DNA from: Ruania alkalisoli
Lineage (GTDB): Bacteria > Actinomycetota > Actinomycetes > Actinomycetales > Beutenbergiaceae
Reading direction: 5' to 3'
Assembly: GCF_014960965.1 (NCBI RefSeq)
Contig: NZ_CP063169.1
Span: 2,823,581-2,887,580 of the forward strand
DNA length: 64,000 bases
The translations under genes were made by a program, and so were the position numbers. Below are positions 59,457 through 61,253 of this stretch, piece by piece; the first letter of the stretch is position 1; every line of letters begins with the position of its first letter. The notes below the pieces were generated by a model. The model was not told the DNA's origin, made no database searches, and worked only from the letters and a program-made list of their open reading frames with translations.

Positions 59457-61091
59457 TCACCCTAGTGGCGCCACGTCGGCATGAAGGAGGCCGTAGACCA
59501 AGCCGTCCACGAGCGCCTCCCACGAGGCCTCGAGCAGGTTCGCCCCGACGCCCACGGTGCTCCAGGAGTGCTGGCCGTCGGTGAGTTCGATCAGCACCCG
59601 GGTGATCGCATCGGTGCCGTGTGCGGAGTCGAGCAGGCGAACCTTGTAGTCGATCAGCTCGATGTCCTCGATCTGCGGGTATGCCCTCGCGAGCGCCTGG
59701 CGCAGGGCGTGGTCGAGGGCGTTCACCGGACCGTTCCCCTCGCCGGTGGAGACCACCCGCTGGTTCCCGGCGTGGAGCTTCACCGTCGCTTCGGCCACGT
59801 CCCGCATCACCCCGTCGGGTCCGGCGGAGTGATCCACGATGGCTCGCCAGGATTCGGTGCGGAAGTACGCCGGGCGCTCACCGGTGATCTCTTCGCGCAG
59901 CAGCAGCTCGAAGGAGGCATCGGCGGCGTCGTAGGTGTACCCATTCGCCTCGGCGTCCTTGACGCGGGTGGTGACCCGCCCGAGCAGGTCCGACTGCCCC
60001 GTGAGGTCGAACCCGAGCTCGCGGCCCTTGAGCTCGATGCTGGCACGACCGGCCATGTCCGAGACCAGCATCCGCATGTCGTTGCCGACCTTGCGGGGGT
60101 CGATGTGCTGGTAGAGGTCGGGGTCGATGCGGATGGCGCTGGCGTGCAGTCCGGCCTTGTGGGCGAAGGCACTGGCGCCGATATAGGGCTGGCGGGCGAA
60201 GGGGGCGATGTTGGTGACCTCGCTGATCGCGTGCGCGATCCGGGTCACCTCCTCCAGTCCGCCCTCGGCGAGGGTACGCAGGCCGAGCTTGAGGTCGAGG
60301 TTGGCGACGACGGCCAGCAGGTCCGCGTTGCCGGTGCGCTCCCCGTAGCCGTTCACCGTGCCCTGCACGTGCCGGGCACCGGCGCTGACGGCGGCCATCG
60401 AGTTGGCCACGGCGCAGCCGGAGTCGTTGTGGGCGTGCATCCCCAGGATGTGGCGCGAAGGGTCGGTCCCAGCGCGCACCTCGGTGACGATCTCGTGCAC
60501 CCATTCGGGCAGCATGCCGCCATTGGTGTCGCACAGCGCCACCACCTCGGCCCCGGCCTCGAACGCCGCGGTGACGGCCCGCATCGCATAACCGGGGTCG
60601 AAGCGGTAGCCGTCGAAGAAGTGCTCGGCGTCGAGTACCACCCGGCGGCCCTCGCCCACCAGGTAGGAGACGGTGTCTGCGATCATGGCGAGGTTCTCCT
60701 CGGCGGTCGTGCGCAGCGCACGCTCGACGTGCCGGATGTCGCTCTTGGCAACGAGCGTGATCGTGGGGGCCTCGGAGTCGAGCAGCGCACGCACCTGAGT
60801 GTCGCGGTGCGCCGTCGTGCCCGGCTTGCGCGTCGATCCGAACGCGGCGAGCTCGGCATTCGTCAGATCCAGGTCCTTGGTGGCGCGTGCGAAGAACTCG
60901 GTGTCCTTCGGGATCGCTCCCGGCCAGCCGCCCTCGATGAACGTCACCCCGAGTTCGTCCAGCATCGGTGCGATGGCGAGCTTGTCAGCGACAGTGAGGT
61001 TCATGCCCTCCTGCTGTGCGCCGTCGCGCAGCGTGGTGTCGTAGACGTGCACGACGTCGTGCTCGACAGTGGGCGTGGTTGGGGTGCTCAT
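59457..61091 (-). CDS. cimA: (R)-citramalate synthase
   Basis: A 544-residue CimA that condenses pyruvate and acetyl-CoA to citramalate, the threonine-independent route to isoleucine. The HMGL-like TIM barrel starts VHVYDTTLRDGAQQEGMNLTV (about 15-35) with the RDG catalytic signature, FIEGGWPGAIPKD follows, and the metal-binding HxH is in GMHAHNDSGCAVANS (about 212). The C-terminal ~120 residues form the LeuA-type regulatory dimer domain. I choose the ATG with AGGAAG at 9 nt; an ATG two codons up is possible. A leader peptide and attenuator precede it. Confidence 0.96.
   Translation of the reverse strand: MSTPTTPTVEHDVVHVYDTTLRDGAQQEGMNLTVADKLAIAPMLDELGVTFIEGGWPGAIPKDTEFFARATKDLDLTNAELAAFGSTRKPGTTAHRDTQVRALLDSEAPTITLVAKSDIRHVERALRTTAEENLAMIADTVSYLVGEGRRVVLDAEHFFDGYRFDPGYAMRAVTAAFEAGAEVVALCDTNGGMLPEWVHEIVTEVRAGTDPSRHILGMHAHNDSGCAVANSMAAVSAGARHVQGTVNGYGERTGNADLLAVVANLDLKLGLRTLAEGGLEEVTRIAHAISEVTNIAPFARQPYIGASAFAHKAGLHASAIRIDPDLYQHIDPRKVGNDMRMLVSDMAGRASIELKGRELGFDLTGQSDLLGRVTTRVKDAEANGYTYDAADASFELLLREEITGERPAYFRTESWRAIVDHSAGPDGVMRDVAEATVKLHAGNQRVVSTGEGNGPVNALDHALRQALARAYPQIEDIELIDYKVRLLDSAHGTDAITRVLIELTDGQHSWSTVGVGANLLEASWEALVDGLVYGLLHADVAPLG
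59459..59464 (-). promoter_or_regulatory. -10 element of a leaderless lplA transcript
   Basis: TAGGGT on the minus strand, 6 nt from the lplA GTG and overlapping the cimA stop codon. Confidence 0.45.
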
Positions 61092-61120
61092 GGTCATGAC
61101 TTCCTGCGGGTGGGTCCAGC

Positions 61121-61150
61121 AACAAAAAGACCCCCCGGGTGCGGGAGGTC
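61121..61150 (-). terminator. Attenuator (intrinsic terminator) upstream of cimA
   Basis: On the minus strand, arms GACCTCCCG and CGGGGGGTC (one G-U pair) enclose a CACC loop and are followed by TTTTTGTT: a textbook intrinsic terminator, placed about 30-60 nt before cimA with the leader peptide upstream. Confidence 0.88.
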
Positions 61151-61151
61151 T

Positions 61152-61179
61152 GCGCGTTCACCGGGTGTGGCGAACGCGC
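61152..61179 (-). promoter_or_regulatory. Leader hairpin (pause/1:2-type) of the cimA attenuator
   Basis: On the minus strand, GCGCGTTCGCC and GGTGAACGCGC pair over 11 bp (one G-U) around an ACACCC loop. It begins at the last base of the leader-peptide stop codon and ends 1 nt before the terminator stem. A ribosome stalled on the Ile codons or finishing the peptide would affect it differently. Confidence 0.7.
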
Positions 61180-61211
61180 TAGGCGATAATCAGGGCGCTG
61201 GTGGGCGTCAT
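61179..61211 (-). CDS. Branched-chain leader peptide MTPTSALIIA
   Basis: A ten-residue reading frame, ATG to TAG, with tandem Leu-Ile-Ile codons (CTG ATT ATC) just before the stop, followed by the two hairpins. Since cimA makes the isoleucine precursor, Ile codons are the expected sensors for ribosome-mediated attenuation. No ribosome site is visible; GATGAT lies 6 nt before the ATG, so the leader mRNA itself may be leaderless. Confidence 0.8.
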   Translation of the reverse strand: MTPTSALIIA

Positions 61212-61253
61212 GTGCTCATCATCGCACATCGCACCGGTGTCACCCCCTCACCG

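Follow-up and report, generated by a model that had tools for sequence, protein, structure and literature searches.

Is the short leader in front of cimA in Ruania alkalisoli a genetic switch and, if so, how does it work? Citramalate synthase catalyses an early step of isoleucine synthesis. The window, by which we mean the whole stretch of 64,000 nucleotides that was analysed, carries on its minus strand a ten-codon reading frame containing two consecutive isoleucine codons, followed by two hairpins, a U-tract and then the cimA gene. A first-pass annotation had read this arrangement as ribosome-mediated attenuation, and the comparative evidence presented here supports that reading, in that the codons of the leader switch with the gene behind it. 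We consider it probable that the element is an isoleucine-sensing, ribosome-mediated transcription attenuator of cimA, and very likely that it would switch cimA on when isoleucine is short.

In E. coli, the trp, ilv and leu attenuators and pyrBI all couple translation of a leader to termination. The trp type requires overlapping 1:2, 2:3 and 3:4 pairings. pyrBI has no paired antiterminator, and it senses UTP, not charged tRNA.

The cimA leader and its locus

In 5' to 3' order on the minus strand, the locus consists of a -10-like hexamer, the reading frame MTPTSALIIA*, a first hairpin (P1), a terminator hairpin (T), TTTTTGTT and cimA. The features are as follows.

61218-61223, minus strand: -10-like hexamer GATGAT, within TGTGCGATGAT, 6 nt ahead of the leader ATG (read from the sequence)
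61179-61211, minus strand: leader peptide reading frame MTPTSALIIA*, 10 codons (ATG 61211-61209, TAG 61181-61179)
61185-61190, minus strand: putative sensing codons Ile-Ile (ATT 61190-61188, ATC 61187-61185), starting 11 and 8 nt ahead of P1
61152-61179, minus strand: hairpin P1, 11 bp with one G-U, base GCGCG/CGCGC, the proposed anti-terminating switch
61128-61151, minus strand: intrinsic terminator hairpin T, 10 pairs including the closing A-U, flush with P1 (gap 0 nt)
61121-61128, minus strand: U-tract TTTTTGTT, with 61128 also supplying the U that closes T
59457-61097, minus strand: cimA, citramalate synthase (TIGR00977, 624.6 bits, cut-off 450)

The arms of P1 are GCGCGTTCGCC (61179-61169) and GGTGAACGCGC (61162-61152), separated by a loop at 61168-61163, and its first base is the last base (G) of the leader stop codon TAG. 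The reading frame, the 11-bp hairpin beginning at its stop, the second GC-rich hairpin with its U-tract, and the identity of the gene behind them are all as the first-pass annotation had described them. Judging from the sequence, the true start of cimA is probably ATG 61091 rather than 61097, because AGGAAG (61105-61100) is spaced 8 nt from ATG 61091 and 2 nt from 61097. Upstream, cimA is flanked by ilvE and a divergent exonuclease/polymerase gene; a lipoate ligase gene lies on its downstream side.

The leader is predicted to fold with a minimum energy of -46.7 kcal/mol, and none of 200 dinucleotide shuffles was as stable (z -4.9). Alignment with related genomes had been proposed as a check for covariation in both hairpins, and the check succeeds: in an alignment of 31 cimA leaders, P1 and T together contain 59 cells with changes on both sides of a pair, compared with 18.6 +/- 3.4 in shuffles (0 of 500). 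The upper five pairs of P1 have such two-sided changes in 4-13 of the 31 sequences, and the five pairs at its base are invariant in the 31. The sequence GCGCG at the base of P1 is found in 148 of the 155 cimA-scored leaders and 32 of the 34 ilvB leaders of the larger set described below. The loop of P1 ranges from short to long among the relatives, with no conserved unpaired core, and TTTTTGTT or a close form of it is present in the 31 aligned relatives. The 5' arm of T opens with AGACCTC in 71 of 155 cimA-scored leaders, and with ACCCCTC in 11 of 34 ilvB leaders.

Distribution and downstream genes

A covariance model was built from the 31 cimA leaders and used to search genomes. At least one match, ahead of any downstream gene, was obtained in 259 of 394 genomes of the class (E <= 0.01) and in 57 of 296 genomes of the phylum (E <= 0.001); many of the matches are mutual relatives, so that the counts are not independent, and the model is trained on cimA leaders. 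Within the family, all 24 genomes, that of the window included, have the element ahead of cimA. It is also carried by 33 of 80 cimA loci from named genome contigs, including those of Cellulomonas, Isoptericola, Demequina, Pedococcus, Nocardioides, Nonomuraea, Amycolatopsis, Kutzneria, Lentzea and Pseudonocardia. A match to the model is absent at the other 47, many of which are records from uncultured actinobacteria or other phyla. Some of the non-matching genes (L011 and L036, by eye) begin directly behind an ilvE-like gene.

The genes behind 210 matches were read, and were first scored as 156 cimA, 34 ilvB, 16 leuS and 4 that are none of these. One of the cimA-scored genes (L171) is leuA according to NCBIfam; it is 33% identical to cimA, and its leader peptide is MTNLLLT. 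The remaining 155 are at least 48% identical to cimA. Geometry was measured on a set of 203, this being the 210 minus L214, L223, L224 and L226, which were left out, and L040, L222 and L256, which do not have two separate hairpins.

The phylum-level matches supplied 32 further loci, all but one (L324) outside the class, of which 20 are ilvB, 7 cimA-scored, 1 leuS and 4 none of these. Four of the 7 cimA-scored genes are 50-54% identical to cimA and have isoleucine leaders; the other three, at 29-33%, are leuA, encoding 2-isopropylmalate synthase, and have leucine leaders. Leu-Leu-Leu is present in all four leaders that were found before leuA (L171, L298, L314 and L323). Three single matches outside the class precede other genes. 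L307 lies before a 3-isopropylmalate dehydrogenase gene and has three isoleucine codons. L322 precedes an isocitrate lyase gene and L297 is found about 200 nt before a prephenate dehydratase gene; these two may be chance matches.

Within the genome of R. alkalisoli itself, the three strongest matches precede cimA, leuS (MQQVLLLIEPRR; TIGR00396) and ilvB (MFTDSLVVVLTGRARAAV; TIGR00118). The leuS leader (L113, 2504477-2504553) and the ilvB leader (L114, 2894835-2894940) are both on the minus strand, and contain Leu and Val/Leu codons, respectively. A fourth, weak match, inside what by eye is a transporter-like gene, is probably due to chance. Two side observations concern ilvB. The genome contains a second acetolactate synthase-like gene (1075160-1076434), 60% identical to ilvB. 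In the ilvB leader L114 (1501-1606, minus strand), the P1 loop contains ACGACGACGA, the complement of the codon run CTCGTCGTCGT, and the sequence suggests that this leader could adopt a different fold through that pairing when it carries no ribosome.

Sensing codons and leader start

Counted in a fixed frame from the first base of P1, isoleucine is encoded at -11 in 125 and at -8 in 129 of 154 cimA-scored leaders. The sensing codons had at first been given as Leu-Ile-Ile; the Ile-Ile part of this stands, and the leucine does not, position -14 being mixed (54 Leu, 48 Ile and 16 Val of 154). Those fixed-frame misses that were inspected are mostly one-base shifts, with the isoleucine run still there. 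If the frame richest in Ile, Leu and Val is taken, a choice that favours the result, 153 of 155 cimA-scored leaders contain isoleucine and 134 contain Ile-Ile, and the last isoleucine is at -8 in 127. The two leaders without isoleucine are L171, which precedes leuA and has leucine codons, and L244, which has another frame with one isoleucine. Under permissive rules, a start-to-stop frame runs across the leader position in 203 of 203 two-hairpin matches. The expectation that homologous cimA genes should keep a leader frame with branched-chain amino acid codons is thus borne out among the leaders that were found, and does not extend to the 47 of 80 cimA loci that have no match.

The same positions are occupied by different codons ahead of other genes. 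In the fixed frame, ilvB leaders have valine at -11 in 34 of 34 cases, and leuS leaders have leucine at both -11 and -8 in 14 of 14. The codon set therefore tracks the downstream gene: isoleucine for cimA, valine and leucine for ilvB, and leucine for leuS and leuA.

The codons vary synonymously, isoleucine in the leaders being encoded by ATT 175 times, by ATC 160 times and by ATA not at all. ATT thus makes up 52% of the leader isoleucine codons (175/335), compared with 6% (111/1797) in the cimA genes that these leaders precede. Similarly, GTA is found at -11 before ilvB in 33 of 34 leaders, compared with 54 of the 981 valine codons of the ilvB genes, and CTT at -8 before leuS in 13 of 14, compared with 2 of 363 in the leuS genes (gene usage being taken from the longest forward open frame, at 201 of 203 loci). 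The sensing positions, in other words, lie at a fixed distance from P1 and are filled by rare synonyms.

These observations bear on the possibility that T is a constitutive premature terminator behind a non-regulatory peptide, or that it responds to some other signal such as a protein or a riboswitch. Changes to the codons of the ilvB leader of S. coelicolor were reportedly without effect, as summarised in PMC1262725, which favours a constitutive terminator and, by analogy, would count against the attenuation reading. A constitutive terminator is at odds with a codon identity that tracks the gene product and with rare synonyms that are kept at fixed positions. As to other signals, a search of Rfam 15 gave no family at the gathering threshold, either in the window or in 15 loci (the best sub-threshold match was Phe_leader, with 26.3 bits against 55 needed and E 0.013), and a riboswitch or known RNA family was dropped as a reading on these grounds; the varying length of the P1 loop and its lack of a conserved unpaired core also speak against one. 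We regard this whole group of explanations as very unlikely.

The leader transcripts appear to be leaderless, because a -10-like sequence is found at a spacing of 6-7 nt and a Shine-Dalgarno-like motif is rare. Of 220 matches to the motif [TCG]ANNNT among the relatives, 142 have their end 6-7 nt ahead of the closest permitted start codon of the leader, and a Shine-Dalgarno-like motif is present in 5 of 203 leaders. The leader transcript of the window is likewise expected from its sequence to be leaderless. Several leaders of S. lividans are reported as leaderless, from their transcript starts, in PMC8079986. One of the motifs TGTGGCA, TGTGCCA or TGTGACA is found ahead of 81 of 155 cimA-scored leaders, 1 of 34 ilvB leaders and 0 of 14 leuS leaders; it is perhaps an extended -10 element.

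Geometry of the two hairpins

P1 and T are almost always adjacent, the gap between them being 0-1 nt in 198 of 203 matches. For cimA-scored leaders it is 0 nt in 131 of 154, 1 nt in 20 and more in 3 (the 155th locus, L165, which has an isoleucine leader, has a gap of 0). The corresponding numbers are 30 of 34, 3 and 1 for ilvB, and 8 of 14, 5 and 1 for leuS. When distance is counted between G-C pairs only, it is 0-5 nt, and mostly 1-2.

Since these matches come from a model trained on cimA leaders, the junction was measured again at 30 ilvB loci that were found by protein. With P1 required to start downstream of the GTA codon, the gap is 0-1 nt in 25 of 28 evaluable loci (0 in 20 and 1 in 5, with 5, 7 and 19 nt once each). 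Another measurement independent of the model gave a gap of 0 in 10, and of at most 2 in 15, of 17 strong P1 hairpins; it found no terminator in 12 of the 30 loci, which is attributed to the stretch searched having ended too early. A third variant, which took whichever upstream hairpin had the lowest energy, gave a gap of 0 in only 8 of 29 loci. The 32 phylum-level loci (31 of them outside the class) have a looser junction, with a gap of 0-1 nt in 23.

Both ends of P1 are fixed in position, and its span is 22-77 nt for cimA leaders, 25-68 nt for ilvB leaders and 26-51 nt for leuS leaders. The leader stop codon of cimA-scored leaders is mostly at -2 (87 of 155) or +10 (39 of 155). A later stop goes with a longer P1, with Spearman coefficients, uncorrected for kinship, of 0.64 for cimA, 0.65 for ilvB and 0 for leuS; as a result, T starts at least 18 nt after the first base of the stop in 203 of 203 matches.

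The search for an antiterminator

In a classical trp-type attenuator, part of P1 would pair with an arm of T when the ribosome stalls, and would thereby act as a competing antiterminator. This is the general rule for amino-acid leaders, and a CCCGG in the P1 loop of the window is able to pair with a CCGGG in T, as the first-pass annotation had pointed out. The ilvB-II motif of Corynebacterium has been modelled with the P1 loop pairing to the right shoulder of the terminator P2, according to the text of PMC10272879, and mutually exclusive hairpins are named in that of PMC13236596.

The complementarity of P1 and T was therefore compared between natural pairs and pairs swapped between species, using duplex energies for 138 cimA, 34 ilvB and 14 leuS distinct sequences, with 40 swaps each, plus shuffles. 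No competing antiterminator was found by this comparison, the natural duplexes being weaker than those of the swapped partners in most swaps. For P1 against the 5' arm and loop of T, swaps were as strong or stronger in 40/40 for cimA, 40/40 for ilvB and 36/40 for leuS; for P1 against the 3' arm, the numbers are 27/40, 40/40 and 30/40. When the first five bases of P1 were removed, the cimA energies against the T 3' arm were -11.13 kcal/mol for natural pairs, -11.21 for swaps and -11.41 for shuffles. The CCCGG/CCGGG pairing is thus present as letters, and cross-pairing of P1 and T is not kept by the relatives. The original remark that no convincing full antiterminator could be seen agrees with this result.

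Transcripts ending before the T 3' arm were also considered. With the RNA exposed from the start of P1, the bases of the T 5' arm pair with P1 with a mean probability of 0.001-0.006. With five bases of P1 hidden the mean is 0.16-0.29, and 9 of 187 sequences exceed 0.5, which is a point in favour of the trp type. The leader region showed no consistent excess of pairing with P1 or T, the nearest case being the cimA leader against the T 3' arm, where 9 of 40 swaps were as strong. An antiterminator formed by P1-T pairing was also sought by folding with a ribosome-sized mask, which gave no consistent excess among those shown of 35 sequences.

An antiterminator that shares sequence with the terminator was accordingly found neither by the duplex comparison, nor in the truncated transcripts, nor in the leader region, and cimA leaders do not keep the P1 loop complementary to the 3' shoulder of the terminator that characterises ilvB-II. 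The predicted minimum-energy fold contains both P1 and T, so that thermodynamics alone does not make the two hairpins exclusive, a point against the role proposed for P1 below. We conclude that a trp-type switch is unlikely here, and that it is more likely that the first hairpin is itself the anti-terminating element.

A proposed mechanism

We infer a leaderless start, ribosome stalling and a role for P1 as the switch from the arrangement of the sequence, and hypothesise that they work together in the following way. Transcription would probably start at the leader ATG, so that a ribosome would load at once. When Ile-tRNA is scarce, the ribosome would stall at ATT/ATC with its leading edge at the base of P1, and P1 would stay folded. 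The stalled ribosome, the folded P1 and RNA polymerase would then crowd one junction, where T could not zip fully, and there would be readthrough into cimA. With ample Ile-tRNA, the ribosome would move on to the stop codon, cover the 5' arm of P1 and open it, leaving a single-stranded spacer before T, which would then terminate transcription.

Counted from the first base of the P-site codon, the front edge of a ribosome is approximately 12-16 nt further downstream. With the A site on the codon at -8, the P site would be at -11, and the front edge would then reach the base of P1. If instead the A site holds the stop codon, the ribosome would cover much or all of the P1 5' arm. A stalled ribosome would thus spare P1 and one at the stop would not, and P1 would therefore report stalling. 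With both hairpins folded and the ribosome stalled, the RNA between the P site and the active site of the polymerase would be reduced to around 11 nt before the hairpins and the 7-8 nt of the U-tract behind them. To our knowledge, this separation is shorter than in any known coupled complex, and T should therefore fail to close unless P1 melts. Such a steric role of P1 would explain why the distances from codon to P1 and from P1 to T are fixed while the length and loop of P1 are free. Taken by itself, the step in which P1 sterically blocks T is plausible, although we would stop short of calling it probable.

P1 could alternatively be a pause hairpin that keeps the polymerase in step, with the proximity of the ribosome alone acting as the switch, as in pyrBI. 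P1 does sit just before T, and both its base GCGCG and the T 5' arm are conserved in sequence beyond the needs of pairing, which may reflect a pause signal. However, a pure proximity device does not need product-specific sensing codons, and the distance from P1 to the possible pause (a C-G step) differs, by eye, between the T arms of cimA and ilvB. For these reasons we think a pause hairpin quite improbable, and retain the reading in which P1 is the anti-terminating element.

By analogy, outside support for the functional logic comes from the ilvB1 leader of M. tuberculosis, where, as reported in the text of PMC13236596, a change of LVVI to AAAA gave low, inhibitor-independent reporter expression. 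The model given there has an anti-terminator that forms on stalling at LVVI and is masked when the ribosome is on the stop. An ilvB leader with LVVI in our own set (L283) has the same flush P1-T layout.

Relation to known leaders

The cimA leader has several features of amino-acid attenuators in general: the codons for the end product come before the stop, a terminator lies between the reading frame and the gene, and the codons change with the gene. It is an instance, at cimA, and a variant of ribosome-mediated attenuation. We file it as a variant, and not as a member of the trp type, because an antiterminator sharing sequence with the terminator was looked for and not found.

The closest relative is the ilvB leader of Actinobacteria, described as IlvL MRTRILVLGKRVG in S. 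lividans, as the ilvB1 upstream reading frame with LVVI in M. tuberculosis, and by Seliverstov et al. (2005). As far as these accounts describe it, it has, like the cimA leader, a short peptide with branched-chain amino acid codons (leaderless in S. lividans), one or more hairpins and a terminator. The ilvB leaders found here with the cimA model share with the cimA leaders both the spacing between sensing codons and P1 and the flush junction. The cimA leader differs in its gene and its amino acid, with Ile-Ile in place of LV/VL. The published ilvB accounts, in the text available to us, either invoke a mutually exclusive anti-terminator or do not settle the mode, and the fixed codon-P1-T geometry does not appear there.

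The ilvB-II motif, as set out in the text of PMC10272879, similarly has an upstream reading frame with branched-chain amino acid codons, P1 and a terminator P2, and its reporter expression is high in minimal and low in rich medium. It differs in that it is described for Corynebacterium ilvB only, its reading frame spans most of P1, and its antiterminator consists of the P1 loop with P2, a pairing that is not kept in cimA leaders. The Streptomyces leuS attenuator (Seliverstov et al., 2005; LeuL2 MRAVRLLLSEPR in PMC8079986) is described with the same layout, and the identical peptide was recovered here at L205; it differs in sensing leucine for leucyl-tRNA synthetase, and it was predicted to be classical, with an antiterminator (Seliverstov et al., 2005). 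The LEU element before leuA in Actinobacteria also has a leader peptide with leucine codons, but is described as a pseudoknot of the leucine codons with the leuA Shine-Dalgarno sequence (Seliverstov et al., 2005), with no typical terminator in S. lividans (PMC8079986), whereas the cimA leader has a terminator.

No treatment of a cimA leader or of cimA attenuation was found in the literature searched, judged by titles and the beginnings of abstracts, and the word citramalate is absent from the running text of PMC1262725 and PMC8079986.

Implications

The leader design recurs widely in the class, and brings cimA, ilvB, leuS and some leuA genes under one layout. We tentatively suggest, as an idea that may well not hold in full, that a single generic amino-acid attenuator, operating without alternative base pairing, is common to the Actinobacteria. 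Rare codons for the end product would be placed one ribosome front upstream of a hairpin that directly adjoins the terminator; a stall would keep this hairpin folded and jam T sterically, a ribosome at the stop would open it, and the codons alone would retune the device to isoleucine (cimA), valine and leucine (ilvB) or leucine (leuS and leuA).

This offers a testable answer to an old puzzle, that of leaders in Actinobacteria which have a peptide and a terminator but in which no antiterminator convinces and mutational results conflict. Should the flush hairpin indeed be the switch, geometry alone can couple translation to termination. For the production of isoleucine and related compounds, the leader would be a possible removable brake on cimA.
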